64,000 nucleotides of DNA from Rudaea sp. 3F27F6 (lineage in GTDB: Bacteria > Pseudomonadota > Gammaproteobacteria > Xanthomonadales > Rhodanobacteraceae). Made by a program: the position numbers and the translations under genes. Every line of letters begins with the position of its first letter. Position 1 is the first letter of the stretch. Below, one piece after another: positions 13,376-57,652 of the stretch. The stretch lies in the NCBI RefSeq assembly GCF_005503555.1, contig NZ_SCNG01000003.1, positions 558,001-622,000 on the forward strand. Direction: 5' to 3'. A model generated the notes under the pieces. It worked only from the letters and a program-made list of their open reading frames with translations. It was not told the origin of the DNA and ran no database searches.

Positions 13376-13458
13376 GTATCTGGGTGCAAAGCCCGATGCG
13401 GGCGGCTGCGCAGTATACCGGAGAATCGGTGACGGTTTTATAAAATGTTGAAATTCAA

Positions 13459-34668: not shown

Positions 34669-34815
34669 GGCTGCTCCTTCTTTCGGGTTGAGTCGAATCG
34701 GCGTGGGCGGCGATTGACTCACGCGGACTCGGCTCGCTGCCACGCGCCAGTTGACGCAGCGCAGATGGTCGCTTTGCCAGCGGCTCACTCGCCGCGCAGC
34801 GCACCGGCGCTGAGA

Positions 34816-36862: not shown

Positions 36863-36878
36863 AGCAAAGAGGACAGCA

Positions 36879-37724: not shown

Positions 37725-37732
37725 GGATACGC

Positions 37733-38500: not shown

Positions 38501-38513
38501 TCCGGCACGCTGA

Positions 38514-38625
38514 AGTTCTAGCCGTTCGCACTGAGCGTAGCCGCGTAGCGGCGAAGTCGAAGTGCCGCTGCAATAGGCTTCGACTCCGCATCTTCGGCTC
38601 TACGCTGAGCCCGAAACGGATGCCT
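38514..38625. repeat. Dispersed inverted repeat between convergent operons
   Basis: TTCGCACTGAGCGTAG near 38525 and CTACGCTGAGCCCGAA near 38602 form arms of a large imperfect stem. In between, GAAGTCGAAGTGC and CTTCGACTCCGC pair as well. This is a REP-like element lying between the stops of the SDR and AraC operons, where it may also end transcription on both sides. Confidence 0.55.
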
Positions 38626-38652
38626 GCTAATACGCACGCAGCTCGATCGGCT

Positions 38653-39588: not shown

Positions 39589-39655
39589 TGTTGCCCTCCC
39601 GGTTTCGCCAGCTCGCCGTTGCCGGTCGGCTGTGCGTATTGTGATTGACTGTCCG

Positions 39656-42375: not shown

Positions 42376-42670
42376 GGGCGAATGCGTCGGGCTCGGCGTC
42401 TATCGTGTGCCGTCGCGCGCGCACGAACCACGCAAGATTTGCCTGGCGAACGGTACAAATCTGCCGGCATCGCGCTTGCTGCGTCGCGGCATCGCGCCGA
42501 CGCCGGCCATGCCGGCCGGTGCGAGCGATTAAGCGCGTATCCGATCGGGGCAAATTGACGCGTAGACGCTCTTCGCGCCCGCATGCGCTAATCGCTGCGC
42601 CGTCGCTCGTCAGCGATCGACGCGGGAGCCGTCGAAGTCGCGGCCAATTAGAAAGACGAAGGGGATGAAG
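42376..42670. other. 295-base divergent region between the two sugar operons
   Basis: The gap holds the promoters of the leftward dehydratase operon and the rightward ten-gene operon. It contains a clear inverted repeat (42435-42462), a GC-rich GCCGGC palindromic patch near 42500 and the GAAGGGG ribosome site of the receptor gene. No gene is seen. Confidence 0.5.
42435..42462. promoter_or_regulatory. Inverted repeat, probable operator
   Basis: The perfect seven-base arms AGATTTG and CAAATCT are separated by 14 bases, so arm centres are two helical turns (21 bases) apart, the usual geometry for a dimeric regulator. It lies 60 bases upstream of the dehydratase start and about 210 bases upstream of the receptor start. 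Confidence 0.4.
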
Positions 42671-45055
42671 ATGCGGGACCCAGGTAAGAGCAAACCTTGC
42701 AGATTGGCGGTGGCCGTGCGCCGCGCCCTGCTCGCGACGCTGGTGTTGTCGGCCCCGGCGTGGGCGGAACCCGACAAGAACAATGGCACGAACGACGCGG
42801 CCGCCGATGCGCAAACCTCGGCATCGAACGCACAGGCCGACAATGCCAAGACGCACGCGACGGAGGGCAACAAGCCGTCAATGATGGGCGAGGTCAAGGT
42901 CATCGGCTACCAGACGCGTTCGGCGACGAGTGCGACCGGCGTCGTCACCGACATCATCAACACGCCGCTGTCGATCTCGGCGATCACCGGCGAGTTTCTC
43001 AAGGACACCGGCTCGTCGCAGATCATGGACGCGATCGGCGCGCTCAGCGGCGTGACCGGACAGAACAACAGCGGCGAGGTCGGAACGAATTTCAGCGTGC
43101 GCGGCTATGCGGTCACGCCGCAGATCGACGGCTTCGATTCGCTGACCGCGGCGTCAGGCCTCGGTTCGTCGGCGGGCGTTGACCGCATCGAAGTGCTCAA
43201 GGGGCCGTCGGCGGTGTTCAACGGCAACGTGCCGCCGGGCGGATCGATCAACATCGTCTACAAGAAACCTTCGTTGACGCCGAAGACTTATTTCGAAGTC
43301 GGCATGGGCAGTTGGTCGTACCGCACCGGCGAGTTCTTCTCGACCGGCCCGTTGCTGACCGACCAGCTCGCCTATCTCGTCGATCTCTACAGCAAAGACG
43401 CCAACGGCTGGGTCGATTGGACCAGCCAGAAAGAGCGCACCGTAATCCTCGGCCTGACCTATCGGCCGACCGACGCGCTGAGCATCAACGTCAACTATCG
43501 CGATATCGACACCAAGGCGCGGCTGTCGACCTTGCCGGTGAGCCATCCAGGCTACATCGGCTCGGGCGCGCCGCAGAACACCGTGCTCGACGACTGGGTC
43601 GCGCAGAACTTCGGCCCGAACGAACCGCCGCAAACGATCACCGTGCCGCAGTACCTGCCGGGCGGCGAACGCTACAACGTGCTCGGTCCGCAGAACTACA
43701 ACAAGGAGCGTTCCAAGTTCTGGAGCAGCGAAATCTCGTACACGGTCAACGACCATATCGAGATTCGCGACAACTTCGCCCACCTCGACTACACCTGGGG
43801 CCTGCTCGCCCTGCTGCAGAGCGGCGCCAAGGTGCTCGGCCCCGACGGCAAGGTCAACACCAACGGTTTTGTCTCGGGCTTTCTCGGCGGCAGCCAGGGT
43901 GGCAGCGGCTGGGAGAACAAGCTCGAAGCGGCGATGTATTTCGACACCGGCGCGATCAGCCATTCACTGCTGGTCGGCGTACAGGCCTCGTATTCGGTCA
44001 CCGACTACTTTCGCATCTGGGTCGATCCGCTCGCGCCGGTCAACGGCGCCGGTCAGCCGTGGGATTTCTTCCGCGACGGCCCGCTGTTGCTGCAGAACGA
44101 GTTCGACGCCTGGCGCAAGATTTTCCCGGTGCCGAACTACGCCAACACGACGAACACCGGCCACACCAATACCCACGCTTATTACATCGCCGAGCAGATG
44201 TCGATGTTCAACGACCGTCTGCATGCGCTGCTCGGCGTGCGCTACACGAAGACGGTCAACGAACTGCTGACCGGCCAGGAATTCGCGTCGAGCGATACGA
44301 CGCCGCAGATCGGCCTGCTGTTCAAGCCGTTCGCGGAGGACTCGTTCTTCAGCCAGACCTCGCTGTTCGCGAACTACTCGCGCTCGTTCACGCCGTCGGG
44401 CATCCTCCAGCCGGGTACGGATCAACTGGTGCCGCCGCGCAAGGGCGAAGGCACCGAGTTCGGCGTGAAGACCTCGTGGCTCGACGGGCAATTGACCAGC
44501 ACGATTTCGTTCTTCCGCGACGACCTGTCCAATATCGCGACGCCCGACTATTCGCACCAGGGCCAGGGCAACACGCTCGTGACCTACAACGTCGGCGGCG
44601 TCGGCCGCGCGCAGGGCATGGAGGCGGAAGTCACCTGGGCGCCGAGCAAGAACCTGCAGCTCTCCGCCAATTTCACCAACCTGCCGGTGGCGAAGTACAC
44701 CGACTATCCCGGCGTGCCGCAGGAAATGGGCCGGCGCTTTCCGGCGACGCCGCGGCAGCAGGCCAACCTGACGGGCAAATACACGTTCGACGAGGGCGCG
44801 CTCGCTGGCCTCTATGTCGGCGGCTGGGTGCACCTGCAAAGTTCGACGACCGGCGTGCTCGCCGGCGACTGGCACTACGACGTGCGCATTCCCGGACTCG
44901 CGCAGGTGTCGGCGTTCGCCGGTTACCAATGGAACCGCTTCGATTTCCGCTTCAACATCGACAACCTCACCGACCGCAACGGCTATGTGATGAACAACGC
45001 GTTCCGTCCGCAGTCGCCGCGATCGTTTTACTTGACGGCGAAATACACGCTGTGA
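42671..45055 (+). CDS. TonB-dependent outer-membrane receptor
   Basis: The 794-residue product has a signal peptide (RRALLATLVLSAPAWA), a low-complexity Ala/Asn/Asp segment, a plug domain (VIGYQTRSATSATG, GVDRIEVLKGPSAVFNGNVPPGGSINI) and a 22-strand-type barrel ending in FYLTAKYTL, a proper C-terminal aromatic strand. It is most like siderophore-type receptors (FhuE/FpvA group). As first gene of an operon for glycoside breakdown it probably imports a glycoside. The ATG at 42671 has GGGG seven bases before it; the ATG at 42665 touches that site. Confidence 0.92.
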   Translation: MRDPGKSKPCRLAVAVRRALLATLVLSAPAWAEPDKNNGTNDAAADAQTSASNAQADNAKTHATEGNKPSMMGEVKVIGYQTRSATSATGVVTDIINTPLSISAITGEFLKDTGSSQIMDAIGALSGVTGQNNSGEVGTNFSVRGYAVTPQIDGFDSLTAASGLGSSAGVDRIEVLKGPSAVFNGNVPPGGSINIVYKKPSLTPKTYFEVGMGSWSYRTGEFFSTGPLLTDQLAYLVDLYSKDANGWVDWTSQKERTVILGLTYRPTDALSINVNYRDIDTKARLSTLPVSHPGYIGSGAPQNTVLDDWVAQNFGPNEPPQTITVPQYLPGGERYNVLGPQNYNKERSKFWSSEISYTVNDHIEIRDNFAHLDYTWGLLALLQSGAKVLGPDGKVNTNGFVSGFLGGSQGGSGWENKLEAAMYFDTGAISHSLLVGVQASYSVTDYFRIWVDPLAPVNGAGQPWDFFRDGPLLLQNEFDAWRKIFPVPNYANTTNTGHTNTHAYYIAEQMSMFNDRLHALLGVRYTKTVNELLTGQEFASSDTTPQIGLLFKPFAEDSFFSQTSLFANYSRSFTPSGILQPGTDQLVPPRKGEGTEFGVKTSWLDGQLTSTISFFRDDLSNIATPDYSHQGQGNTLVTYNVGGVGRAQGMEAEVTWAPSKNLQLSANFTNLPVAKYTDYPGVPQEMGRRFPATPRQQANLTGKYTFDEGALAGLYVGGWVHLQSSTTGVLAGDWHYDVRIPGLAQVSAFAGYQWNRFDFRFNIDNLTDRNGYVMNNAFRPQSPRSFYLTAKYTL

Positions 45056-45081
45056 GACGGTCGGGGGCGTCGAAGCGAACC

Positions 45082-46680
45082 ATGCAGACGGTGAATCGAG
45101 AGCGGCGGGTTTTCCTCAATCGGCTTGGATTGACCGCTTTCGTCGCCGGGCTCGACTACGTGCTGCCGGGCGCGGCGCTGGCCCGCGCCGATGCGGCGCC
45201 GGAAGCGCTCGGCGTCGATTCGGCGGCGGTGCGCGTGTTCCTCGACGCCGTCGCGGCGAGCACGTATGAAGTGCACAGCCTGATCGTCGCGCGCCAGGGC
45301 CGCATCGCCGCGCGCGGCTGGTGGGCGCCGTACCGCGCCGAAGCGCCGCAGCTGCTGTATTCGCTGAGCAAGAGTTTCACCTCGACCGCGGTCGGCTTCG
45401 CCGTCGCCGCGGGCAAGCTCAAGCTCTCCGACAAGGCCGTCGATTTCTTTCCGGGGCAGGCGCCGAAGCCGATCGGCGAGCATCTCGGCGCACTGCGCGT
45501 CGAGCATCTGCTGACGATGTCGGTCGGCCAGGCCAACGACGCGACGCCGGCGGTCACGCGCGAGCAGGACTGGGTGCGCAGCTTCCTCGCGCTGCCGATC
45601 GAATTCCAGCCGGGCAGCGTGTTCCTCTACAACAGCGCGGCAACCTACATGTTGTCCGCGATCGTGCAAAAAACCATCGGCGAAAAGCTCGTCGACTATC
45701 TGCGTCCGCGCTTCTTCGATCCGCTCGAACTGCCGCCGATGCGCTGGGCGGAATGTCCGCGCGGCATCAACACCGGCGGCTGGGGTCTCAGTGCGACGAC
45801 CGAGACGCTGTCCAAGTTCGGCCAGTTCTATCTACAGAAAGGCAAATGGAAAGGCCGGCAATTGCTGCCCGCGGCGTGGATCGAACAGGCGACGAGCTTC
45901 AAGATCCAGCAGCCGCCCGGATCGGGCCAGGATCTCGCCCAGCTCAAGCGCGACAGCGACTGGCACCAGGGTTACGGCTATCAATTTTGGCGCTGCCGGC
46001 ACAACGCCTATCGCGGCGACGGTGCGTTCGGCCAGTACTGCATCGTGCTGCCCGAACTCGATGCGGTCATCGCGCTGACCGGCCGCACGCTCGACATGCA
46101 GGGTCTGCTCAACCTGGTCTGGGATCATCTGCTGCCGGGCCTGCACGCCGGCGCGCTGCGCGCCGACGCGGCCGCGGCCGACAAGCTCGGTGCGCAACTT
46201 TCCGCGCTGAGTCTGAAGTTGCCCGAAGGCGCGCGCACTTCGCCGCGGCAGATGCAGCGCGCCGACTACGTGGTCGAAACTAATGCGCTCGGCGTCGAGC
46301 GACTCGGTCTCGCCTTCGATGCCGACAGCTGCCGCATCGAGTTCGGCATCGGTGCGCGCACGCACGTCGTCACCTGCGGCCTCGGCCGCTGGCGCGACGG
46401 CGAAACCGAACTGCCCGGCACGCCGCCCGAGTTCACCGAGCTGATCGGCAGCTACGTGTCTCCGAAGGTGCCGGCCAAGCTCGCCGCGGCCGGTGCATGG
46501 AAAGATGCGGACACGCTGCAGATGCAGTGGCGCTATTACGAAACGCCGCACTTCGACACGGTGACGCTGAAGTTCAGCGGCGACAAGGTCGAAGTCGCCT
46601 TCCTCAACAGCCTTACCCAGATGGCCGCCGCGGTACATCCCGAGACGCGGCCCGTCCTCAAAGCCAGCCCGAGAACCTGA
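45082..46680 (+). CDS. Exported beta-lactamase-family serine hydrolase
   Basis: The 532-residue product has an N-terminal signal-like helix after RERRVFLNRLGLTAF, possibly Tat-type. The class C beta-lactamase/esterase fold carries Ser94-x-x-Lys97 (YSLSKSF), a Tyr motif (FLYNSAATYML) and a C-terminal extension of about 150 residues. Such proteins are often esterases or peptidases rather than true beta-lactamases; removal of ester groups from a glycoside is plausible here. The frame open back to 43312 overlaps the receptor gene and was trimmed. It ends two bases before the GMC gene. Confidence 0.85.
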   Translation: MQTVNRERRVFLNRLGLTAFVAGLDYVLPGAALARADAAPEALGVDSAAVRVFLDAVAASTYEVHSLIVARQGRIAARGWWAPYRAEAPQLLYSLSKSFTSTAVGFAVAAGKLKLSDKAVDFFPGQAPKPIGEHLGALRVEHLLTMSVGQANDATPAVTREQDWVRSFLALPIEFQPGSVFLYNSAATYMLSAIVQKTIGEKLVDYLRPRFFDPLELPPMRWAECPRGINTGGWGLSATTETLSKFGQFYLQKGKWKGRQLLPAAWIEQATSFKIQQPPGSGQDLAQLKRDSDWHQGYGYQFWRCRHNAYRGDGAFGQYCIVLPELDAVIALTGRTLDMQGLLNLVWDHLLPGLHAGALRADAAAADKLGAQLSALSLKLPEGARTSPRQMQRADYVVETNALGVERLGLAFDADSCRIEFGIGARTHVVTCGLGRWRDGETELPGTPPEFTELIGSYVSPKVPAKLAAAGAWKDADTLQMQWRYYETPHFDTVTLKFSGDKVEVAFLNSLTQMAAAVHPETRPVLKASPRT

Positions 46681-46682
46681 CT

Positions 46683-48488
46683 ATGCCTTTTGTCGATGCC
46701 GAGACGATCAGCCGACGCAACTACGACGTCATCGTCGTCGGCTCGGGCGCAGGCGGCGGACAGATGGCCTACACCTTGAGCATGAGCGGCGCGCGCGTGC
46801 TTATGCTCGAAGCCGGCAGGAACTACGATCCCGCGACCGAGACGGCGATGTTCCAGACGCCCGACATGGCGCCGCTGCGCGGCACGAGCACGCCGGAAAA
46901 ACCGTTCGGTTTCTACGACGCCACCGTCGACGGCGGCTGGCAGGTGCCCGGCGAACCGTACGTGCAGACCAGCAAGGAACCGGGCGGCCGCTTCGACTGG
47001 TGGCGCGCGCGCATGCTCGGCGGCAGGACCAACCACTGGGGGCGCATTTCGCTGCGCAACGGTCCCTACGATTTCAAACCGCACTCGCGCGACGGCCTCG
47101 GCTTCGACTGGCCGATCTCGTACGAAGACATGGCGCCGTACTATGACAAGGTCGAGATGCTGGTCGGCATCTACGGCTCGAACGAGGGCCTGGAGAATAC
47201 GCCGGACTCACCCGCGGGCTGTCTGCTGCCGCCGCCGAAACCGATCGTCAGCGACCTGCTCGTGCAGAAGCACACGGCCAAGCTCGGCTTTCCGACGATC
47301 GCCTGCCACCGCGCCGTGCTGACGCAGCCGCTCGACTGGAAGAACTCGCCGGCGAAACTGCATCCGGGCAACGCCGCCGCGCAGGACATCATCGCGCGCG
47401 ACATGCGCAAGCGCTCGCCGTGTTTCTGGGCGACGCCGTGCGGGCAGGGCTGCTCGATCCGCGCGAACTATCAATCGACCACGGTGCATCTGCCGCCCGC
47501 GCTCGAAACCGGCAAGCTCGACATCGTCACCGATGCGATGGTCGCCGAGGTGACGCTGGCGAAGGACGGCCGCGCCTCGGGCGTGCGCTTCGTCGACCGG
47601 CACTCGGGCAAGTCGCTGCAGGCCAGCGCGCGCGTCGTCGTGCTCGCGGCGAGCGCGTGCGAGACCGTGCGCATCCTGCTCAATTCGAAGTCGGCGCAAT
47701 TTCCGCAGGGCCTGGCGAATTCGAGCGGCAAGGTCGGCAAGTACCTCATGGACACGGTCGGCAGCGATCTCGGCGGACAGATTCCGCTGCTCGAGAATCT
47801 GCCGCCGCACAACGAGGACGGCGTCTCCGGTCTGCACATGTACGTGCCGTGGTGGGGCTACAAGGCGCAGAAGGCCGGCAAGCTCGGCTTCGCGCGCGGT
47901 TATCACATCGAGTTCAACGGCGGCCGGCGCATGCCGCAATTCCACACCGCGGCCGGCCTCGAATGGCTGACCGGCGGCAGCTACGGCGCCAAGTTCAAGG
48001 AAGACGCGCGGCGCTACTACGGTTCGATGATCTATTTCGCCGGGCGCGGCGAGATGATTCCGAACGAGCATTCGTACTGCGAGATCGATCCGCAGGTGAA
48101 GGACAAGTGGGGCATCCCGGTGCTGCGCTTCCACTGGCAGTTCTCCGAGCACGAGACGCGCCAGGCCGCGCATATGCAGAAGACTTTCGCCGAGCTGATC
48201 GAGTCGATGGGCGGCCGCGTGCAGAAACCGCCCGAGACCGACGGCGCCAAGGCGATAGCGCCGGGCGGCAGCATCATCCACGAAGTCGGCGGCGCGCTGA
48301 TGGGCGACGATCCGCGCCGCTCGGTGGTGAACAAGTGGTGCCAGGCCTGGGACGTGAAGAATCTTTTCCTCGCCGACGGCGCGCCGTTCCCGTCGAACGC
48401 CGACAAGAACCCGACCTTGACCATCATGGCGAACGCGTGGCGCGTCGCCGACCACATTCTCGACCGCATGCAGCGGAAGGAGCTCTGA
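46683..48488 (+). CDS. GMC-family FAD oxidoreductase (sugar/glycoside dehydrogenase catalytic subunit)
   Basis: The 601-residue flavoprotein has the FAD-binding VVGSGAGGGQMA at about residue 18 and LGGRTNHWGR. Its catalytic pair is His in SIIHEVGG and Asn in DKNPTLTIMANAW. It belongs with the large subunits of membrane gluconate/glucose dehydrogenases and of glucoside 3-dehydrogenases. It has no signal peptide. The next gene, overlapping by one base, encodes the small subunit with a Tat-like signal, so folded export as a complex is likely. No cytochrome c subunit is encoded nearby. In this operon oxidation of a glycosyl C3 hydroxyl is the favoured role (inference). Confidence 0.88.
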   Translation: MPFVDAETISRRNYDVIVVGSGAGGGQMAYTLSMSGARVLMLEAGRNYDPATETAMFQTPDMAPLRGTSTPEKPFGFYDATVDGGWQVPGEPYVQTSKEPGGRFDWWRARMLGGRTNHWGRISLRNGPYDFKPHSRDGLGFDWPISYEDMAPYYDKVEMLVGIYGSNEGLENTPDSPAGCLLPPPKPIVSDLLVQKHTAKLGFPTIACHRAVLTQPLDWKNSPAKLHPGNAAAQDIIARDMRKRSPCFWATPCGQGCSIRANYQSTTVHLPPALETGKLDIVTDAMVAEVTLAKDGRASGVRFVDRHSGKSLQASARVVVLAASACETVRILLNSKSAQFPQGLANSSGKVGKYLMDTVGSDLGGQIPLLENLPPHNEDGVSGLHMYVPWWGYKAQKAGKLGFARGYHIEFNGGRRMPQFHTAAGLEWLTGGSYGAKFKEDARRYYGSMIYFAGRGEMIPNEHSYCEIDPQVKDKWGIPVLRFHWQFSEHETRQAAHMQKTFAELIESMGGRVQKPPETDGAKAIAPGGSIIHEVGGALMGDDPRRSVVNKWCQAWDVKNLFLADGAPFPSNADKNPTLTIMANAWRVADHILDRMQRKEL

Positions 48489-49108
48489 TGGACCGGCGCA
48501 CAAGCCTACGCTGGATGCTCACCGCGGCGACGACCTTGCCGCTCGGCCGCCTCGGCCTCGCCGCTGCGCCGGATGGTGCGACGGAAGCGAAACCTTACGG
48601 CTCCGATCCGAAACTGATCGATGCCTATCATCCGGGCGAGCTGTGGCCGCTGACCTTGACGCCCGAGCAGCGCAAGCTCGCGGCTCTGCTCAGCGACACG
48701 ATCATCCCGGCCGATGCGATGTCGCCCGCCGCATCCGCGGTCGGCGTGGTCGATTTCATCGACGAATGGATCAGCGCGCCGTATGCGCTGCAGCGCGCGG
48801 ACCGCCGGCTGGTGCTCGACGGTTTCGCCTGGTTCGACGCCGAGGCGAAGCGGCGCTACTCGAAGGCGCCGGCGGCGCTCGCCACGGAACAGCTCCACGC
48901 GATCTGCGACGACATCTGTTATCTGCCGAAAGCCAAACCCGATCTGCACGCGGCGGCGAAATTCTTCGCGCGCTATCGCGACCTGACCGCGGGCGGGTTC
49001 TACACCACGCCGCAGGGTCGCGAGGATCTGCGCTACGTCGGCAACAAGCCGCTCCCGAAATTCGACGGCCCGCCCGTCGAAGTATTGAAAAAGGTAGGTC
49101 TCGCGTGA
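48488..49108 (+). CDS. Gluconate 2-dehydrogenase subunit 3-like protein
   Basis: The 206-residue product begins MDRRTSLRWMLTAATTLPLG, a Tat-like signal, followed by the subunit-3 core (LTLTPEQRKLAALLSDTIIPAD, GVVDFIDEWI, TAGGFYTTPQGREDLRYVGN). In known enzymes this subunit is needed to fold and export the GMC subunit. The start overlaps the GMC stop (TGATG), and the stop overlaps the next start (GTGA). Confidence 0.9.
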   Translation: MDRRTSLRWMLTAATTLPLGRLGLAAAPDGATEAKPYGSDPKLIDAYHPGELWPLTLTPEQRKLAALLSDTIIPADAMSPAASAVGVVDFIDEWISAPYALQRADRRLVLDGFAWFDAEAKRRYSKAPAALATEQLHAICDDICYLPKAKPDLHAAAKFFARYRDLTAGGFYTTPQGREDLRYVGNKPLPKFDGPPVEVLKKVGLA

Positions 49109-50088
49109 ACGACGAGTTCAATTTTTCCCGCCGGCGCGCACTGAAGACGATCGCCGCCGCGGCCGTCGCCTGCGCCGGAATGCGCACGGGCTGGGTCGCT
49201 GCCGCGGGCACCGGCGCGGTGCGCTGGGCGCCCGGATTGCAATTGTATACTTTGGGCCTGAAGGCGAAGGACGATATCGCGGCGGTGTTCAAGCAGCTCG
49301 CCGCGATCGGCTATCGCGAGGTCGAGTTTCCGGGGCACTACGAACGCAGCGCGGCCGATCTGCGCCGTGCGCTCGACGCGGCACGGCTCGTCGCGCCGGC
49401 AGCACATATCGCGCCGCGGCCGGCGCCGGGCATGTGGGATTTCACCGGCGATCTCGGCAAGTTCGCCGAGAGTCTGAAAGTGCTCGGCGCGCGCTACGCG
49501 GTCGTGCCGATTCCGCTGTTGCAGGATCGAATCTACGACGTCATCCAGCATCCGCCCGCGGGCTTCGACACGGCCGCGGTGTCGCGCCTGTTCGCTTCGC
49601 TCGAAGCCGACGACTGGAAGCGCACGGCCGACATGTTGAACGAGAAAGGCGCCGCGCTCGCCGAGCACGGTATCCGTCTCGCCTATCACAATCACGGCGT
49701 CGACTTCGCGCCGCTGCCGGGCGACACCAACGGCCTGCGCACTCTGATCGAGCGCACCGATCCGGCCCTGGTCGATTTCGAGCTCGATATCGGTTGGGCC
49801 GTGTCGGCCAAGCAGGAGTTGCCCGCGCTGTTCGGCCTGTTCGGCAAGCGCCTGCGCCTGCTGCATCTCAAGGACACCAAGCGGCCTTCGACGAGCGTGA
49901 TGGAACTCGCCTCGACCGACGCCGGCACCGGCATCGTGAAATGGGACGAACTGGTCGGCCTCGTGCGCGGCAGCCGCATCGAGCACATGTTCGTCGAACA
50001 GGAAGAACCGTTCCCGACGACGCCGATGGACGCGGTCAAGGTCGACTATCGCTTTTTGACGAAACTGTTCGCCGGAGAAAAAACATGA
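49105..50088 (+). CDS. Tat-exported TIM-barrel sugar isomerase/lyase-like protein
   Basis: The 327-residue product starts at a GTG that overlaps the previous stop. It has a clear twin-arginine signal (FNFSRRRALKTIAAAAVACAG). An AP-endonuclease-2-like / sugar-phosphate-isomerase TIM barrel follows, with LQLYTLGLK, YHNHGVDF, VDFELDIGW and LRLLHLKD. Cytosolic relatives are isomerases. Exported ones are found in keto-glycoside degradation clusters, where relatives act on 3-keto sugars by elimination or epimerisation. The exact reaction here is unknown. Confidence 0.86.
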   Translation: MNDEFNFSRRRALKTIAAAAVACAGMRTGWVAAAGTGAVRWAPGLQLYTLGLKAKDDIAAVFKQLAAIGYREVEFPGHYERSAADLRRALDAARLVAPAAHIAPRPAPGMWDFTGDLGKFAESLKVLGARYAVVPIPLLQDRIYDVIQHPPAGFDTAAVSRLFASLEADDWKRTADMLNEKGAALAEHGIRLAYHNHGVDFAPLPGDTNGLRTLIERTDPALVDFELDIGWAVSAKQELPALFGLFGKRLRLLHLKDTKRPSTSVMELASTDAGTGIVKWDELVGLVRGSRIEHMFVEQEEPFPTTPMDAVKVDYRFLTKLFAGEKT

Positions 50089-51287
50089 ATCTGCATGGGA
50101 GGACATTGCGCCGGGTGACGTTTGCCGTGCTCGGCTTCGCCCTGACGCTCGCCGCCGGCGGCGTGCCGGACGACGCGCGCGCGGCGAAAGCCGCAGCGGC
50201 CGCTGACGCACCGGGCGCACTGGTCGAGATCAAGCCGATCGCCGACGTGGACGCGTCGGTGCGCAGCCTCGGCGCCGAAGCGTTACGCGTGCTCTATCGC
50301 TCGACGTCGAGCGACGGCCAGCACAGCGTGGTCTCGGGCGCGCTGTACGTGCCCGCGGGCAAACCGCCGGCCGGCGGCTGGCCGGTGATCGCGCATGCGC
50401 ACGGCACCACGGGAGTGACCAACGACTGCGGTCCGTCCAGCTCGCCGAACCTGTTCGGCATGATCGTCATGGTCGTCGCTTATCTGAAAGCCGGCTACGC
50501 CGTCGCGTTCACCGACTATCAGGGCCTCGGTGGCGGCGGCATCCATGTCTACCTCGACAACAAGACCGAAGGCTACAACGTCATCGATTCGGTGCGCGCG
50601 CTGCGCAACGCCAAGCCCGGCCTGATCTCCGACCGCTGGGTGGCGATCGGCGGTTCGCAGGGCGGCGGCGCGTCGTGGGCCGCCGCCGAGCAGGCGCCGG
50701 TGTATGCGCCTGAGCTGCATCTGGTCGCTGCGGTCAACGAGGTGCCGGCCGCGGACATCTCGGGCTACGCCAAGATTGCCGAAGACCAAGGCATGACGCC
50801 GATCCAATCGGCCGCCTTTACCGCCATCCTGATTTCGCAGAGCCGCGCGCATCCGGATCTCGACATGGATCTCTACCGGCGCGGTTCGGTGAAGCAGAAC
50901 TGGGACGTCCTCGGCAGCTGTAAGGATCTCGACGGACGCAACCGCGCGGTGATGCAGATCAAGCCGGAAGAACTCAAGCCGTCGACGCACGAGGCGACGT
51001 TGAAACTGCAAAGCCTGCTGCAGGCGATGGCCGTGCCGAAGCGCAAGGCCGATGCGCCGATGCTGGTGATCTACGCGGGCAAGGACGAATACATCAATCC
51101 GGCGTGGACGAAGAAGGCGATCGAGGACGCATGCCGTATGGGTACGAAGATCGAAGCCGATTTCCAGGCCGACAAGAGCCACGGCACGTTCGACGGCAGT
51201 CGCGCGCTCGACTGGCTGCACGATCGGCTGCAGGGTAAACCGCTGACGAAATCCTGCGTGGCCGACGCCGCAGCGGGCAAGGGCTGA
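50085..51287 (+). CDS. Exported alpha/beta hydrolase, secretory-lipase-like
   Basis: The 400-residue product has a signal peptide (FAVLGFALTLAAGG). The alpha/beta hydrolase fold has the nucleophile Ser191 in GGSQGGGA, a probable acid in YAGKDEYI and the His in SHGTF. The oxyanion region is HAHGTTGVTNDCG. The family includes secreted lipases and esterases; an acyl or aryl ester on the imported glycoside is a possible substrate. The start overlaps the previous stop by four bases, and three bases separate it from the DUF1080 gene. Confidence 0.85.
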   Translation: MNLHGRTLRRVTFAVLGFALTLAAGGVPDDARAAKAAAAADAPGALVEIKPIADVDASVRSLGAEALRVLYRSTSSDGQHSVVSGALYVPAGKPPAGGWPVIAHAHGTTGVTNDCGPSSSPNLFGMIVMVVAYLKAGYAVAFTDYQGLGGGGIHVYLDNKTEGYNVIDSVRALRNAKPGLISDRWVAIGGSQGGGASWAAAEQAPVYAPELHLVAAVNEVPAADISGYAKIAEDQGMTPIQSAAFTAILISQSRAHPDLDMDLYRRGSVKQNWDVLGSCKDLDGRNRAVMQIKPEELKPSTHEATLKLQSLLQAMAVPKRKADAPMLVIYAGKDEYINPAWTKKAIEDACRMGTKIEADFQADKSHGTFDGSRALDWLHDRLQGKPLTKSCVADAAAGKG

Positions 51288-51290
51288 GCC

Positions 51291-52109
51291 ATGAAATCGT
51301 GCATACATTTCGCCTTGCGCGGCATCGTACTCGGACTGCTGGTCGCCGCCGCCGGCGTGCACGCCGAGGAAGAAAAATATCCGACCGGATACACGGACGC
51401 GCCGTATCTGCCGAACAGCCCGTGGCGCGTGCACGACGACAAGCGTCCGCGTCCGCGCGTGGTCGCGCCGGGCACGGCCGGCAGCGACGAGCGCCCCGGC
51501 AAGCCGCCGGCCGACGCGACGATCCTGTTCGACGGCAAGAATCTCGATGCGTGGCAGGCGGAGAAGGGCGGCGCGGCCGGTTGGAAAGTCGAAAACGGTT
51601 ATATGGAAGTCGTCGGCGGCAGCGGCGACATCGTCAGCAAGCAGAAATTCGGCGACTACCAACTGCATGTCGAATTCAGCGAGCCGTCGCCGCCGTCGGG
51701 TCAGAGCCAGGGCCGCGGCAACAGCGGCGTCTTCCTTGCCGGCCTCTATGAAATACAGGTGCTCGACAGTTACGACAACTACACCTACGCCGACGGCGAG
51801 GCTTCGGCGATCTACGGCCAGGCGCCGCCGCTGGTCAATGCCGCGCGCCCGCCGGGCCAGTGGCAGACCTTCGACATCGTATTCAACGCGCCGCGTTTCG
51901 CCGGCGGCAAAGTCACGAGTCCGGGCTTCGTCACCGTGCTCTACAACGGCGTGCTCACGCAGAACCACACCGCGCTGCTCGGCCCGAGCGTGCATCACGC
52001 GTTGCCGAAGTGGTTGCCGCACGATCTGAACATGCCGCTGAAGCTGCAGGATCACCATATGCCGGTGCGCTTCCGCAATATCTGGGTCCGCCCCTTGTCC
52101 GATCAGTAG
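51291..52109 (+). CDS. DUF1080 family protein (3-keto-disaccharide hydrolase domain)
   Basis: The 272-residue product has a signal peptide ending at GVHAEE. A DUF1080 concanavalin-like domain begins ATILFDGKNLDAW, with GRGNSGVFLAGLYEIQVLDSY and HHMPVRFRNIWVRPL. This domain is now named for hydrolysis of 3-keto-disaccharides. Its presence with a GMC oxidoreductase, two TIM-barrel enzymes and a Gfo/Idh/MocA protein is the main reason to read this operon as a keto-glycoside pathway. It is expected in the periplasm. Confidence 0.9.
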   Translation: MKSCIHFALRGIVLGLLVAAAGVHAEEEKYPTGYTDAPYLPNSPWRVHDDKRPRPRVVAPGTAGSDERPGKPPADATILFDGKNLDAWQAEKGGAAGWKVENGYMEVVGGSGDIVSKQKFGDYQLHVEFSEPSPPSGQSQGRGNSGVFLAGLYEIQVLDSYDNYTYADGEASAIYGQAPPLVNAARPPGQWQTFDIVFNAPRFAGGKVTSPGFVTVLYNGVLTQNHTALLGPSVHHALPKWLPHDLNMPLKLQDHHMPVRFRNIWVRPLSDQ

Positions 52110-52121
52110 CGGGGCCGCGCC

Positions 52122-53342
52122 GTGAACAAATCGAAGCTATTCGTCGCCAGCTGCGTCTCGCTGGTGACGACGGCGATGGTGTTCGCCATCCGCGGCGACA
52201 TCGCCAACGATCTTTCCGCCGCGTTCCATCTGAGCAACGAGCAGCTCGGCCTGATTTTCAGCCCGGCGTTCTGGTGCTTCACGATTGCGATCTTCATCAG
52301 CGGCGCGCTGGTCGACGCGGTCGGCATGCGTACCCTGCATATCCTCTCCGCGGTCGGTTACTTCGTCGGCATCGCGCTCGTCGTGTTCGCCGTGCGTCCG
52401 AGCGCGCCGGTCGCGTCGATCTTCGATCATCCCGGCACGGTCATGCTCTACGCGGGCTTCATGATCATGGGGCTGTCGCAGGGGCTGGTCGAAGGCGTGA
52501 TCAATCCGCTGATCGCGACGGTGTACAGCGAGCGCAAGACCCAGCGCCTCAACATGCTGCATGCCTGGTGGCCCGGCGGCATGATCGTCGGCGGCGTGAT
52601 CGCGGTGGCGATGACCTCGTGGTTCCACGCGCGCTGGGAGGCCAAGCTTGCGACGATTCTCGTGCCGGCGCTGATCTATCTGATCATGGCCTCGTCGCTG
52701 CGCTATCCGCCGACCGAGCGTGTGCAGCAGAACGTCTCCACGGCCGCGATGTGGCGCGAGGCGGCGCGGCCGGGATTCGTGCTGCTGTTCTGCTGCATGT
52801 GGCTGACCGCGGCGATCGAACTCGGCCCGGACCAGTGGTTTCCCGCGGTGATGCAGGCGCTCGCGCCGCAGTTGCAGGGTGTGCTGTATCTGGTCTACAC
52901 GGCGGGACTCGTGTTTCTGCTGCGCACGTTCGGCAGCGGCATCGCGCACGCGTCGCCGATCGCGACCTTGCTCGCCTGTTCGGTACTCGCCGGCGTCGGC
53001 CTGTACTGGCTCGGCAGTCTGCAGCCCGGAGACGGTGCCGTCGTCGCGTTCGCGGCGGCGACGGTGTTCGGCGTCGGCAAGGCGTTCCTCTGGCCGACGA
53101 TGCTCGGCGTCACCTCGCAACGCTATCCGCGCGGCGGCGCGCTGCCGATGAGCCTGATGGGCGGCGCGGGCATGCTCTCGGTCGCCACGGCGCTGCCGGT
53201 CATGGGCGCGCGTATCGACCGCTACGGCGCCGGCGCGGCGCTGCAGACGATGGCCGCGCTGTCGATTCCGCTTGCCATCGTTTTCGTCGGCATGTACTTC
53301 TATCATTCGCGTCGCATGGCACAGCCGCAGGCGACGCACTGA
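52122..53342 (+). CDS. Major facilitator superfamily sugar transporter
   Basis: The 406-residue membrane protein has about 12 helices and starts at a GTG 12 bases after the DUF1080 stop. The N-terminal half contains FAIRGDIANDLSAAFHLSNEQLG, and loop 2-3 has GALVDAVGMRTL. MFS proteins of this type commonly accompany Gfo/Idh/MocA, DUF1080 and TIM-barrel genes. It probably carries the released (keto)sugar across the inner membrane. Confidence 0.88.
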   Translation: MNKSKLFVASCVSLVTTAMVFAIRGDIANDLSAAFHLSNEQLGLIFSPAFWCFTIAIFISGALVDAVGMRTLHILSAVGYFVGIALVVFAVRPSAPVASIFDHPGTVMLYAGFMIMGLSQGLVEGVINPLIATVYSERKTQRLNMLHAWWPGGMIVGGVIAVAMTSWFHARWEAKLATILVPALIYLIMASSLRYPPTERVQQNVSTAAMWREAARPGFVLLFCCMWLTAAIELGPDQWFPAVMQALAPQLQGVLYLVYTAGLVFLLRTFGSGIAHASPIATLLACSVLAGVGLYWLGSLQPGDGAVVAFAAATVFGVGKAFLWPTMLGVTSQRYPRGGALPMSLMGGAGMLSVATALPVMGARIDRYGAGAALQTMAALSIPLAIVFVGMYFYHSRRMAQPQATH

Positions 53343-53364
53343 ACGAATGGCAAGCGAGGAAACG

Positions 53365-54519
53365 ATGTCGCGAAAACTGCGAATGGGTCTGATCGGCGGC
53401 GGCCCGGGTTCTTTTATCGGCCGCATCCACCGCATCGCGGCGGAACTGGACGGCGAGGCGGAACTCGTCTGCGGCGCATTCAGCAGCTCGGCCGAGCGCT
53501 CGCGCGAAGCCGGCGAAAGTTATCGTCTGCCGGCCTCGCGCGTCTATGCGAGCTACGCGCAGATGATCGAGGCGGAGAAAGCGCTGCCGGCCAGCGAGCG
53601 CATGGATTTCGCTGCGATCGTGACGCCGAACCACGTGCACTACGAGCCCGCGCGGCTGTGCCTGGAAAGCGGATTCCACGTCGTCGTCGACAAGCCGATG
53701 TGTTTCTCGGTCGACGAGGCGAAGCAATTGCAGGAAGTCGTCGCGCGCACGCGCCGCCTGCTTGCCGTCACTTACACCTACAGCGGCTATCCGCTCGTGA
53801 AGCAGGCGCGCGCGCTCGTCGCGGCCGGCCGACTTGGCGCGGTGCGCAAAATCTACGTCGAATATCCGCAGGGCTGGCTCGCGACCGGCGTCGAACAGGG
53901 CGGACAGAAGCAAGCGAGCTGGCGCACCGACCCGGCGAAGTCCGGGGCCGGCGGCGCGATCGGCGACATCGGCACGCACGCCGCGCATCTCGCCGAATAC
54001 GTCAGCGGCCTGCACATCGCCGAAGTCGATGCTGCGCTCAATACTTTCGTTGCGGGGCGCCGGCTCGACGACGACAGCGCGATGCTGCTACGCTTCGAGA
54101 ACGGCGCGAGCGGCGTCCTGTTCGCGACCCAGGTCGCCGCGGGCGAAGAAAACAACATCCGCATCCGCGTCTACGGCGAGAAGGGCGGCCTCGAATGGCA
54201 GCAGGCCGACGCGAATTCGCTGGTGCTGCGCCTGATCGATGCGCCGGTGCAGGTGCTGCGCACCGGCTCGGCCTATCTCGCCCCAATCGCCGCGGCGAAC
54301 GCGCGCACGCCGCCGGGCCATCCCGAGGGTTATCTCGAAGCGTTCGCCAATATCTATGCCGCGTTTTACAAGGCGGTGCGCGACTACGAGCGCGATCCCG
54401 CGATCGATTTCCGCAGTTACGATTTTCCCAACGTCGACGATGGCCTGCACGGCATGAGCTTCGTCGATACCGTCGTGCGTTCCGCACAATCCGACAAGAA
54501 GTGGACGGCTTTGCCATGA
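53365..54519 (+). CDS. Gfo/Idh/MocA-family oxidoreductase
   Basis: The 384-residue cytosolic NAD(P)-dependent enzyme has a Rossmann N-terminus (MGLIGGGPGSFIGRIHRIAAE), TPNHVHYEP and the catalytic-lysine motif DKPMCFS. A C-terminal beta-sheet substrate domain has GGAIGDIGTHAAHLAEY. Relatives oxidise or reduce sugars at C3 and other positions. Here it could reduce a 3-keto sugar after uptake or oxidise a glycoside inside the cell. The ATG at 53365 follows GCGAGGA; an ATG at 53347 is possible. Its stop overlaps the next start (ATGA). Confidence 0.9.
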   Translation: MSRKLRMGLIGGGPGSFIGRIHRIAAELDGEAELVCGAFSSSAERSREAGESYRLPASRVYASYAQMIEAEKALPASERMDFAAIVTPNHVHYEPARLCLESGFHVVVDKPMCFSVDEAKQLQEVVARTRRLLAVTYTYSGYPLVKQARALVAAGRLGAVRKIYVEYPQGWLATGVEQGGQKQASWRTDPAKSGAGGAIGDIGTHAAHLAEYVSGLHIAEVDAALNTFVAGRRLDDDSAMLLRFENGASGVLFATQVAAGEENNIRIRVYGEKGGLEWQQADANSLVLRLIDAPVQVLRTGSAYLAPIAAANARTPPGHPEGYLEAFANIYAAFYKAVRDYERDPAIDFRSYDFPNVDDGLHGMSFVDTVVRSAQSDKKWTALP

Positions 54520-55571
54520 AGACGATCAAGGGTCCGGCGATTTTTCTTGCGCAGTTCATGGGCGACAAGGCGCCGTTCGACAAACTCGAAAGCATCTGTC
54601 GCTGGATGGCGTCGATCGGCTATCGCGGCGTGCAGATTCCGAGCTGGGACAGCCGCTGCATCGATCTCAAACGCGCCGCAGAAAGCAAGGACTACTGCGA
54701 CGAGATCAAGGGCGTCGTCGAGTCCTGCGGCCTCAAGATCACCGAACTCTCGACCCATTTGCAGGGTCAGCTCATCGCCGTGCATCCGGCCTACGATGCG
54801 CAGTTCGACGGTTTCGCCCCGGAATCGGTGCGCGGCAACCGCGACAAGCGCACGGCCTGGGCGGTCGAGCAGCTTCACCTCGCTGCGCGCGCGAGCCGCA
54901 ATCTCGGCCTCGACGCGCACGCCACGTTCTCAGGCGCGCTGCTCTGGCACACGTTCTACCCGTGGCCGCAGCGTCCCGCGGGCGTGGTCGAAGACGGGTT
55001 CAAGGAACTCGCGCGCCGCTGGCGGCCGATTCTCAATGCGTTCGACGACGTCGGCGTCGACGTCTGTTACGAAATTCATCCGGGCGAGGATCTGCACGAC
55101 GGCGTGACCTTCGAGCGCTTCCTCGCAGCGACCGGCGACCACCCACGCTGCCGCATGCTCTACGACCCGAGCCATTTCGTCCTGCAGCAGCTCGACTATC
55201 TGCGCTATATCGATCACTACCACGAGTTCATCCGCATCTTCCACGTGAAGGACGCGGAGTTCCGCCCGTCGGGCAAGTCGGGCGTGTACGGCGGCTACCA
55301 GAATTGGATCGATCGCCCGGGACGATTCCGCTCGCTCGGCGACGGCCAAGTCGATTTCAAGGCGGTCTTCTCGAAATTCGCCCAGTACGATTATCCGGGC
55401 TGGGCGGTGGTCGAGTGGGAGTGCGCGATCAAGCACCCGGAAGACGGCGCGAAGGAAGGCGCGGCATTCGTGCGCGACCACATTATCCGCGTTACCGAAC
55501 ACGCCTTCGACGACTTCGCCGGGCAGGGTGCCGACGAGGCACTCAACCGTAGGGTGCTTGGCTTGTCCTGA
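54516..55571 (+). CDS. Cytosolic TIM-barrel sugar isomerase/epimerase
   Basis: The 351-residue protein of the xylose-isomerase-like / AP-endonuclease-2 family has metal-site motifs VCYEIHPGEDL, DPSHFVLQQ and IFHVKDAEF, with a late WECAIKH. There is no signal peptide, unlike the paralogue at 49105, so it should act with the Gfo/Idh/MocA enzyme whose gene it overlaps by four bases. It is the last gene of the ten-gene operon; a short CCCGGC/GCCGGG hairpin follows at 55579-55596. Confidence 0.88.
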   Translation: MKTIKGPAIFLAQFMGDKAPFDKLESICRWMASIGYRGVQIPSWDSRCIDLKRAAESKDYCDEIKGVVESCGLKITELSTHLQGQLIAVHPAYDAQFDGFAPESVRGNRDKRTAWAVEQLHLAARASRNLGLDAHATFSGALLWHTFYPWPQRPAGVVEDGFKELARRWRPILNAFDDVGVDVCYEIHPGEDLHDGVTFERFLAATGDHPRCRMLYDPSHFVLQQLDYLRYIDHYHEFIRIFHVKDAEFRPSGKSGVYGGYQNWIDRPGRFRSLGDGQVDFKAVFSKFAQYDYPGWAVVEWECAIKHPEDGAKEGAAFVRDHIIRVTEHAFDDFAGQGADEALNRRVLGLS

Positions 55572-55578
55572 GTGCGCG

Positions 55579-55596
55579 CCCGGCACAATCGCCGGG
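55579..55596 (+). terminator. Hairpin after the ten-gene operon
   Basis: CCCGGC-N6-GCCGGG begins eight bases after the last stop. No T-run follows, so intrinsic termination is uncertain. A larger REP-like element lies just beyond. Confidence 0.3.
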
Positions 55597-55637
55597 ATGA
55601 ATTGAGGAACCTCCCGACAGTTCTGATTTCATCGAAT

Positions 55638-55742
55638 CTCGTCATTCCGGCGCAAGCTGGAATCCAGCTTTTGGCCGGTCGGACACAAAGCGGAATCCCG
55701 GCTTGGCCAGTTCCTCGGCTGTCGAGAGCCGCCGGGATGACG
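55638..55742. repeat. REP-like paired palindrome
   Basis: CGTCATTCCGGCG near 55640 and CGCCGGGATGACG ending near 55742 are inverted ends of a 105-base element. It has internal copies of GGAATCC/GGAATCCC. Elements with CGTCATTCC ends are widespread between genes in Xanthomonadales and relatives. It separates the sugar operon from the unassigned leftward gene. Confidence 0.65.
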
Positions 55743-55759
55743 AACAAATCGGAACTTGC

Positions 55760-56461
55760 CTAACGCTTCCGTTCCGAGTCTTCGTCCGACTTTTTTCTTC
55801 CGAAGCGCGCCATCTTGCGCACCGCGTCGCCGATCATGCCTAGCGAGGTCTTCACCGCGTCGAGCGACCAGTCGAGCACGCGCCGCTCGTCGACGCCGCT
55901 GAACGCGCGCACCACGTCGGGCATGCCGGTGATCGGCGAGTCTTTCCATTTCGCCACGGCCTGCGCGCGTTTGCCGATCGCGTAGGTGACGCTGGCGTTG
56001 CTGACCGCGGACGAGACGATCGCGGCGATCGGCACGAAGCGTTTGGTCAGCGCGCCGCCGATGCGCCCGCCGAGGCGGCGCAGCACGCCGCGCACGAGGA
56101 TGTCGCCGGCGATGCTGGCGCTCGTGCCCACGGTTTGCACGCGGTCGATCAGCTCAGTGTGCAGGGCCGCAGGCAACTGCAGCGAATATAGCTTGAAGGT
56201 GTCTTCGACCAGCTCGCGCTGCACGCGCGCGAGGAACTTGGCGTCGAGCACTTCGCCGAAGACGAAGCCGAGCACGCGGCCGAGGCCGGGAATCGCCTCG
56301 ATCGCCGCAGTCAGCGCGCCGGTCAGCGCCGCGCGCGTGCACTTGCGCCGCAACAGGGCGACGAACTGGGTATCGACGTCGTCGACGCGTACCGCTTCGA
56401 TTTCCTTGCTCGCCTTGCGTGCGGGCGGTTTGGCTTCCGGATCGCGTTTGATGCGCAGCAT
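55760..56461 (-). CDS. Uncharacterised protein with Gly-rich hydrophobic segments
   Basis: The 233-residue product has a basic N-terminus (MLRIKRDPEAKPPARK) and a charged region. Two amphipathic or hydrophobic Gly/Ala-rich stretches follow (ALTGALTAAIEAIPGLGRVLGF and GRIGGALTKRFVPIAAIVSS), and the C-terminus is very basic (RKKSDEDSERKR). The pattern recalls EcsC or DUF697-like membrane-associated proteins, but I cannot assign it. Codon use is like its neighbours. It is divergent from mtnA across 123 bases. Confidence 0.7.
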   Translation of the reverse strand: MLRIKRDPEAKPPARKASKEIEAVRVDDVDTQFVALLRRKCTRAALTGALTAAIEAIPGLGRVLGFVFGEVLDAKFLARVQRELVEDTFKLYSLQLPAALHTELIDRVQTVGTSASIAGDILVRGVLRRLGGRIGGALTKRFVPIAAIVSSAVSNASVTYAIGKRAQAVAKWKDSPITGMPDVVRAFSGVDERRVLDWSLDAVKTSLGMIGDAVRKMARFGRKKSDEDSERKR

Positions 56462-56584
56462 GGCCGCATGCTAACGGAAAATGCCGGCAGCCGCGTTTCC
56501 GCGCCGGGCGGATCGGGCCGCGACAAGGCAGCTGCAACGATCATCGGTTATTCTTAACAATTGACCGCTTTCTCAGAATTCCCC

Positions 56585-57652
56585 ATGTCCGATCTTTCTC
56601 CTGCTTCGCTGGATCGCCACGATACGATCCGTGCCGTGAACTACGCCGGCGGCGCGCTGCGCCTGCTCGATCAGCGCGAGCTGCCGTTCACCGAGGCGCA
56701 GATCGAATGCCGCAACGCGCTCGAAGTCGCAAAGGCGATCAAGGATCTGGTCGTGCGCGGTGCGCCGGCGATCGGCATCGCCGCGGCCTGGGGCGTGGTG
56801 CTGCAGGCCGCGCTGCTCGACACCGCCGGGCAGAAAATCAGCGTGGCCGCACTCGACCCGACATTCGACGCCTTGAACGCCGCGCGGCCGACCGCGGTCA
56901 ACCTCGCCTGGGCGCTCGCGCGCATGCGCCGCGCGCTCGAACAGGCGAAGTCCGATCCGCTCGCCGTGCTCGCCGCCGAGGCGCGCGCGATCCAGGACGA
57001 GGATCTCGCCGCCAACCGCAAGATGGGCGAATTCGGCGCGGGTTTCTTCGGCGAGCGCATCGGCGTGCTCACGCATTGCAATACCGGCTCGCTCGCCACG
57101 GCGGGCTTCGGCACCGCGCTCGGCGTGATCCGCGCGGGCTACGCCGGCGGCAAAGTCGCGCAGGTGTATGCGGGCGAGACGCGGCCGTGGCTGCAGGGCG
57201 CGCGCCTGACCATGTGGGAGCTTGTGCGCGACCGCATTCCGGCCAAGCTGATCGCGGATTCGGCGGCGTCGCACCTGATGAAGTCGGGCGCGGTGCAGTG
57301 GATCGTGGTCGGCGCCGACCGCATCGCTGCGAACGGCGACACGGCGAACAAGATCGGCACCTACCAGCTCGCGATCAGCGCGAAGCGGCACGGGGTCAAG
57401 TTTATGGTCGTCGCGCCGTGGTCGACCGTTGACATGCAGACCAAGCACGGCGACGACATCGAGATCGAACTGCGCGATCCGGCCGAGCTGCTGTCGATCT
57501 CCGGCAAGCGCACCGTGGTCGACGGCGCCGATGCGTGGAATCCGGTGTTCGACGTGACGCCGGCCGAATTGATCGACGTCATCGTCACCGAACGCGGCTC
57601 GATCGAGCGGCCGAATGCGGCGCAGATGCAGGATCTGCTCGCGCGGGGCTGA
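56585..57652 (+). CDS. mtnA: S-methyl-5-thioribose-1-phosphate isomerase
   Basis: The 355-residue enzyme of the methionine salvage pathway converts methylthioribose-1-phosphate to methylthioribulose-1-phosphate. Catalytic Cys165 ([12 protein letters not shown]) and Asp245 ([12 protein letters not shown]) correspond to the known pair. Conserved blocks [14 protein letters not shown] and [15 protein letters not shown] are present. The ATG at 56585 was preferred to the TTG at 56561. No other salvage gene is in the window. GtrA follows five bases after the stop. Confidence 0.96.

Follow-up and report, generated by a model that had tools for sequence, protein, structure and literature searches.

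The ten genes g1 to g10 (Table 1) lie within a 64,000-nucleotide stretch of DNA from Rudaea sp. 3F27F6 (contig NZ_SCNG01000003.1, positions 558,001 to 622,000), hereafter the window. They most likely form an operon that removes sugars from plant-type compounds without hydrolysis, the sugar being oxidised and its bond broken outside the inner membrane and the sugar repaired inside. The specific route, a four-step non-hydrolytic degradation of beta-D-glucosides split at the inner membrane, is considered quite probable. The evidence comprises the gene content, the export leaders, the residue conservation and fold match of the TIM-barrel protein g5, the close homology of g10 to the Agrobacterium hydratase AtHYD and the conserved neighbourhood. 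A first-pass annotation of this DNA had proposed a route through 3-keto intermediates, and the g5 residues and fold, the leaders and the g10 homology speak for it.

The following course is inferred for Rudaea, in its reactions, in the identity of the sugar, in the import and in the parts played by g2, g6 and g7. The TonB-dependent receptor g1 would admit the glycoside, and the exported hydrolases g2 and g6 would probably first trim a substrate that bears esters. The g3/g4 dehydrogenase, exported via the twin-arginine leader of g4, would oxidise C3 in the periplasm, where g5 may free the aglycone by a metal-assisted beta-elimination that yields 2-hydroxy-3-keto-glucal. The exported g7 may be part of the cleavage, perhaps of alpha-linked or disaccharide substrates, and/or hydrate some product. 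Subsequently, the keto sugar would reach the cytosol via g8 or another transporter, g10 would hydrate 2-hydroxy-3-keto-glucal to 3-keto-glucose and g9 would reduce 3-keto-glucose to glucose. Such an eliminating glycoside pathway would release the aglycone outside the inner membrane, and a single operon would hold the receptor, the hydrolases and the genes for cleavage and repair.

Probable elimination outside the inner membrane

By predicted function, g5 is an exported O-glycoside (3-keto-beta-glycoside) eliminase. The metal site of the Agrobacterium eliminase AtOGE consists of H132, D163, H189 and, weakly, E233, and its catalytic histidine is H134; the H134A variant is inactive and H189A retains less than 0.1% (passages of PMC10628242). 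These metal ligands and the catalytic histidine are all five identical in g5. In the phmmer alignment to 8bvk, H195/N196/H197, E226, D228, H254 and E298 of g5 correspond to H132/N133/H134, E161, D163, H189 and E233 of AtOGE. In an alignment of 14 sequences, H195, N196, H197, E226, D228 and H254 are invariant (14/14) and E298 is nearly so. The TIM barrel had been expected to retain the catalytic residues of characterised relatives, and those of AtOGE are present. The AlphaFold model of g5, built from 7 sequences, reached a predicted local distance difference test (pLDDT) score of 83.2 and a predicted template modelling score (pTM) of 0.80. Chains of 3-keto-beta-glucopyranoside-1,2-lyases (8tcr, 8tcd, 8tct) occupy Foldseek ranks 1, 2, 4 and 5 for this model, the first IolE fold appears at rank 11 and AtOGE at ranks 13-14. 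BLASTP gave no real match between g5 and the annotated TIM barrel at L076:11274-12167, the other TIM barrel of that locus being the g5-like one.

Cleavage of C-glycosides was rejected as a candidate. AtOGE is inactive on the 3-keto C-glucosides tried, as far as passages of PMC10628242 report, and C-glycosides are less likely because g5 resembles this O-glycoside eliminase. A DUF6379-type second subunit is not among the families found by the Pfam scan of the ten genes.

The leaders would place these reactions in their compartments. Twin-arginine leaders are present in g2 (3/3 sequences), g4 (4/4) and g5 (4/4), the window included in each count, and g7 carries a Sec-type leader; export of the TIM-barrel and DUF1080 proteins, as first annotated, is thus supported. 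The pattern extends to a survey of 31 stretches (30 loci and 20 kb of the window) in which leaders were assigned by a crude rule. The loci are no random sample, having been picked for their likeness to g5, g10 or AtOGE; L031, L032, L035, L045, L046 (the same place as L036), L049-L051 and L064-L067 were left out. Export-like leaders were found on 21 of the 23 g5-like TIM barrels (18 twin-arginine-like, 3 Sec-like; none in L078 and L099) and on 17 of the 18 DUF1080 proteins, all 18 of which have a hydrophobic segment. Only one of the 24 g10-like hydratases was flagged, via sequence upstream of its own ATG, and none of the 24 reaches the hydrophobicity of a Sec leader.

Predicted repair of the sugar in the cytosol

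Judged by homology, g10 is a predicted cytosolic 2-hydroxy-3-keto-glucal hydratase. It matches AtHYD (8ro4) with 583 bits over positions 1-350 to 1-349, with 240 of 350 residues identical (68.6%). The cytosolic pair had been assigned the restoration of the sugar, an assignment that the closeness of g10 to AtHYD upholds and sharpens, the cytosolic TIM barrel being a hydratase. The imported species is therefore probably 2-hydroxy-3-keto-glucal or 3-keto-glucose. Its partner g9 shares 46.7% identity with 3v5n, a Gfo protein of solved structure, across 383 aligned columns, and retains the DKP and GDxGTH motifs, to which we ascribe a catalytic role. It scores well below the levoglucosan dehydrogenase family cut-off (NF052479, 111.2 bits against 650).

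Of 369 genomes of the class, 10 have the hydratase (E <= 1e-100). The surroundings of 10 of the 11 matches were compared (8 of the 9 other genomes, with the G609 fragment left out), and Gfo genes stand near the hydratase at 9 of these 10 loci. The hydratase/reductase pair is a general unit.

Import is the weakest link of the pathway, given the patchy relatives of g8. A 79% identical copy is present in a Rhodanobacter metagenome-assembled genome (MAG), and the relatives in Rudaea cellulosilytica are merely 35-39% identical. We know of no described transporter for an unsaturated keto sugar such as 2-hydroxy-3-keto-glucal, a point on which no targeted search was run.

Proposed oxidation by the GMC pair

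The oxidation step is assigned to a candidate glycoside 3-dehydrogenase, g3, which resembles the large subunits of fructose and glucose dehydrogenases in the PDB. The large subunit and the subunit 3 exported by twin-arginine translocation (TAT) of the three-subunit GMC type (FDH/LacABC) are both present (PF05199 and PF13618). The g4 leader DRRTS(L/I) is found in 4/4 sequences, window included, and g3, without a leader of its own, presumably travels with g4, as known for such dehydrogenases. By pattern search, the g3 motifs HE(V/L)GG and NPTLT, which we take to carry the histidine and asparagine of GMC enzymes, are found in the window, R. cellulosilytica and the MAG SZAS-87; in the more distant genome G886, NPTLT was matched and HE(V/L)GG was not. 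The identity of g3 to the GMC protein of a Xanthomonas 3-keto cluster is 33%. Its branch is rare: an even draw over the phylum, 398 genomes, contained 2 with it (E <= 1e-180), one being the window's own. A scan of viral contigs with the g3 patterns gave nothing.

Conservation of the operon

The neighbourhoods were compared by tblastn over 24 loci. In R. cellulosilytica, of the same genus, g1-g7 are found in order at 69-88% identity (L036/L046, one place in two collections). The SZAS-87 MAG (L047) carries g1-g7, g9 and g10, with no MFS gene between g7 and g9, and the Rhodanobacter MAG (L048) carries g3-g10 on a contig that starts inside g3. The recurrence of the order in three genomes argues that the gene set is more than chance. 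The first-pass annotation had suggested looking for conservation of the ten-gene order; the order recurs wholly or partly in these three genomes, R. cellulosilytica lacking g8-g10 at this place and SZAS-87 lacking g8. At a second R. cellulosilytica locus (L063) a GMC-subunit 3-Gfo-hydratase run is present at 67-83% identity. The exported and cytosolic halves persist together in this species though unlinked, and their split means that each half can be tested separately. G886 brings together, in one stretch, Gfo, hydratase, MFS, a LacI-like gene (by eye), DUF1080, a g3-type GMC (65%), subunit 3 and a TonB receptor.

The genes that precede the operon differ. In R. cellulosilytica it is headed by a sigma-70-family factor of the extracytoplasmic function (ECF) type and FecR, and the receptor has an STN domain; a Pfam search found none in g1 of the window. 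Upstream of the window's operon are an AraC gene and a gene for a dehydratase, and SZAS-87 shows the AraC arrangement as well.

Nature of the substrate

The receptor, the two exported hydrolases and an acyl-CoA ligase of R. cellulosilytica offer circumstantial hints of an acylated glucoside as a plausible substrate. The serine hydrolase g2 is related to 3-succinylated cholic acid synthase without being a member of that family (NF045925, 287.4 bits, cut-off 800), and its leader and SxxK motif are present in 3/3 sequences, window included. The GGSQG motif of g6 is kept in 4/4 sequences, again including the window, and the g6 leader ends in a lipoprotein-like cysteine in three other genomes and not in the window. 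Close relatives of g6 (76-78%) occur in 2 of 398 genomes of the order, one of them the window's own with a second copy, and three further genomes of the order have relatives at 32-35%.

Plain beta-glucosides or disaccharides as substrates, with g2 and g6 as unrelated esterases on a shared promoter, are a realistic alternative that falls short of being probable. The annotated core runs of Sphingomonas, Hymenobacter, Xanthomonas and Paracoccus contain no such hydrolases, the plasmid gene table being incomplete. On the other hand, g2 and g6 hold their place in R. cellulosilytica and SZAS-87, as does g6 in the Rhodanobacter MAG, on a contig without the g2 place. The window's genome also contains a second pair of receptor and secretory lipase (71% and 77% identity to g1 and g6, respectively), unaccompanied by the rest of the operon (L064, G000:C9:9000-27000). 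In R. cellulosilytica, g7 is followed directly on its strand by a gene for an acyl-CoA ligase, 120-210 bases away depending on the start chosen (PF00501; a long-chain fatty-acid-CoA ligase subfamily is matched with 593 bits, cut-off 476). Finally, a g5-like TIM barrel (38.8%) on a Caulobacter rhizosphaerae plasmid (L031) lies at most 9 kb from a receptor, a tannase/feruloyl esterase and a serine hydrolase. In Croceicoccus, a receptor and an alpha/beta hydrolase are found in the wider neighbourhood of a 3-keto cluster. These two arrangements indicate that the operon is not alone in having receptors and hydrolases close to 3-keto genes. The L046 coordinates of the R. cellulosilytica features (sigma factor, FecR, receptor and ligase) are 1593-5944 and 13250-14899.

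The more specific reading of a TonB-fed periplasmic module for acylated glucosides, with acyl trimming, aglycone release outside the inner membrane and uptake of 2-hydroxy-3-keto-glucal, is tentative and somewhat unlikely as a whole. If true, the sugar part alone would have to reach the cytosol, and not the often toxic aglycone. Were the substrate acylated, the operon would give a direct way to study how bacteria in soil exploit decorated plant glucosides, which ordinary glucosidases may be unable to reach.

An L-rhamnoside substrate was considered and not adopted. Sugar-acid genes of the L-rhamnose type lie upstream of the operon, and a run of short-chain dehydrogenase/reductase (SDR), fumarylacetoacetate hydrolase (FAH)-family, SDR and AraC genes also precedes the SZAS-87 operon. 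Two SDR genes, 59% and 55% identical to those of the window, are found about 8 kb from the C. rhizosphaerae g5-like gene. However, rhamnosidases of glycoside hydrolase family 106 (GH106) were found in SZAS-87 alone among the 4 genomes searched, and a GH78-type match in the window's genome (33 bits, cut-off 24.5) spans just positions 112-219 of 339.

The DUF1080 protein and the remaining alternatives

Membership of g7 in the DUF1080 family is clear (PF06439, 142.3 bits against a gathering score of 26.8), and it matches 4qhz with 212 bits alone and 329.8 bits with a profile. Its RGNSG and LQ(D/E)H motifs are conserved. An alternative, judged unlikely, is that g7 completes both cleavage and hydration in the periplasm, so that 3-keto-glucose is what crosses into the cytosol for reduction by g9, leaving g10 just to clear stray glucal. 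H255, within LQ(D/E)H, is invariant in 11 of 11 aligned DUF1080 proteins, and a Bacteroides thetaiotaomicron lyase deficient in hydration is compatible with this alternative if it is, as supposed, a DUF1080 protein whose histidine matches H255. However, g10 is highly conserved beside g9 (82% in SZAS-87, 81% in the Rhodanobacter MAG, 83% at the second R. cellulosilytica locus), which would be odd for a spare enzyme.

Catabolism of inositol or sugar isomers, with the TIM barrels as IolE-like dehydratases or isomerases and g9 as inositol dehydrogenase, is highly improbable. Weak NCBIfam matches speak for it (IolE 53 and 62 bits, cut-off 290; IolG 52 bits, cut-off 355). Against it, g10 scores 583 bits to the glucal hydratase and only 42.7 to the IolE-annotated 3cny, 3-keto-glucoside lyases outrank IolE folds for g5, and the exported GMC pair and DUF1080 do not fit. 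It is equally hard to credit that the operon strips the sugar from a glycosylated siderophore. The nearest family of g1 is indeed the TonB-dependent siderophore receptors (TIGR01783), and the R. cellulosilytica operon is headed by a sigma factor and FecR. Against this reading, the 187.7 bits of g1 are under the cut-off of 223.5, the scan of the ten genes and of flanking proteins gave no iron-uptake family apart from g1, and the neighbouring AraC and sugar-acid genes point to carbon use.

Several observations weigh against the four-step route split at the inner membrane. The third Foldseek row for g5 is 3obe, annotated merely as a sugar phosphate isomerase/epimerase, and the g7 model, from an alignment of four sequences, has a pLDDT of 31. 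A g7 that hydrates in the periplasm would leave g10 partly redundant. Beside g1-g7 of R. cellulosilytica there is no g8-g10 block, and no g8 relative was found at E <= 1e-20 in SZAS-87, a perhaps incomplete MAG. GMC genes are near the hydratase at just 3 of the 10 loci, and the pairing of g9 and g10 is therefore not peculiar to GMC clusters. The identity of g3 to the GMC proteins of ordinary 3-keto clusters is merely 29-34%, which makes the sugar and the position oxidised by g3 candidates only. A cytochrome c subunit in the cluster is a defining feature of the three-subunit GMC type. No cytochrome c family was found among the ten genes and the ten flanking proteins scanned.

Gene layout and neighbouring genes

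The host genome has 5.70 Mb. The ten genes occupy positions 42665-55571 of the window on the + strand, the first start being 42665 or the second ATG at 42671. Pfam matched each of the ten labels given in the first-pass annotation. The spacings from g1 to g10 are 26, 2, -1, -4, -4, 3, 12, 22 and -4 bases. Overlaps had been said to join many of the genes; 4 of the 9 junctions do overlap, so that "many" was slightly too strong, and the run is operon-like. A consensus scan of 42000-56600 gave no promoter of the sigma-70 type, where shuffles predict 1.7, and 10 terminator-like sites against a shuffle expectation of 11.4; the scan therefore neither favours nor breaks the operon.

Table 1. Positions in the window and assignments of the ten genes of the operon.
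Gene	Position	Strand	Assignment	Family or match
g1	42665..45055	+	TonB-dependent receptor, plug and barrel, siderophore-receptor-like	PF00593/PF07715
g2	45082..46680	+	Exported beta-lactamase-fold serine hydrolase, twin-arginine leader, SxxK motif SLSK	PF00144
g3	46683..48488	+	GMC dehydrogenase large subunit without leader; candidate glycoside 3-dehydrogenase	PF05199/PF00732
g4	48488..49108	+	Gluconate_2-dh3-type small subunit, twin-arginine leader DRRTSLRWML	PF13618
g5	49105..50088	+	Twin-arginine-exported TIM barrel, predicted 3-keto-beta-glycoside 1,2-eliminase	PF01261 (AP_endonuc_2)
g6	50085..51287	+	Exported secretory-lipase-family alpha/beta hydrolase, GGSQG nucleophile motif	PF03583
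g7	51291..52109	+	Sec-exported DUF1080 protein, 3-keto-disaccharide hydrolase family; putative lyase and/or hydratase	PF06439 (3keto-disac_hyd)
g8	52122..53342	+	MFS transporter, candidate keto-sugar importer	PF07690
g9	53365..54519	+	Cytosolic Gfo/Idh/MocA oxidoreductase, candidate 3-keto-glucose reductase; start perhaps 53347	PF01408/PF22725
g10	54516..55571	+	Predicted cytosolic 2-hydroxy-3-keto-glucal hydratase	AP_endonuc_2; 8ro4 match

The sugar-acid pathway genes upstream of the operon (36128-42375) comprise an SDR gene, the FAH-family gene, a second SDR gene, the AraC regulator and an IlvD/EDD dehydratase. The FAH protein is near 2,4-didehydro-3-deoxy-L-rhamnonate hydrolase (389 bits, cut-off 500). 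On the - strand, 32248-34788 has weak matches to a glycoside-hydrolase core (PF11790) and CBM_4_9, and adjoins an aldose epimerase gene. A second 3-keto-type cluster in the window's genome (L034, G000:C9:531000-549000) contains DUF1080, MFS, TIM-barrel and GMC genes and has counterparts at L038, L039 and L040.

Comparison with known systems

A close arrangement of parts is that of Agrobacterium tumefaciens, with the same five functions: a flavoprotein dehydrogenase with a TAT partner, a TIM-barrel eliminase, a hydratase and a Gfo reductase. According to passages of PMC10628242, GlycDH, OGE, HYD and Gfo lie in one putative operon, the methods section lists the TAT protein together with GlycDH, and the operon organisation becomes more diverse as relatedness falls. 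The window adds the receptor, the DUF1080 protein and the two exported hydrolases. In addition, g5 has an export leader and AtOGE seems to be without one, since the crystallised chain aligns from residue 10.

In Caulobacter, C3 is oxidised by a dehydrogenase complex of the periplasm. LacABC acts on lactose there, and the DUF1080 protein CCNA_01705, which has a signal peptide, is proposed to be periplasmic (passages of PMC9007349). Unlike Caulobacter, the window combines an exported eliminase and a cytosolic hydratase/reductase in one operon. The Bacteroides/Alistipes lyases AL1 and BT1 (8tcr, 8tcd, 8tct) share with g5 the fold and the HNH, E/Q-x-D and HxKD residues, at 19-22% identity in the fold alignment. 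Plasmid clusters of Sphingomonas, Hymenobacter and Xanthomonas sacchari share the GMC protein, subunit 3, TIM barrels, DUF1080, permease, Gfo and hydratase. These three differ in the presence of a cytochrome c gene, the absence of g2, g6 and a receptor within the annotated run, and the gene order.

Levoglucosan oxidation in Bacillus smithii is reportedly cytosolic and linked to nicotinamide adenine dinucleotide (NAD). The four-step chemistry of oxidation, elimination, hydration and reduction proposed for the window is shared with this pathway, carried out by the four enzymes LgdA, LgdB1, LgdB2 and LgdC (abstract of PMC7676230). The pathway is restated in passages of PMC13273386. No paper describing the present operon was among the matches listed from the open-licence PubMed Central literature. 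With known systems and plasmid clusters of nearly the same core, the operon is an unusual form of a known bacterial pathway and not a new kind. Its core is of a known and widespread kind, and what is particular here is the rare GMC branch, the TonB receptor, the two exported hydrolases and a cluster without a cytochrome gene.

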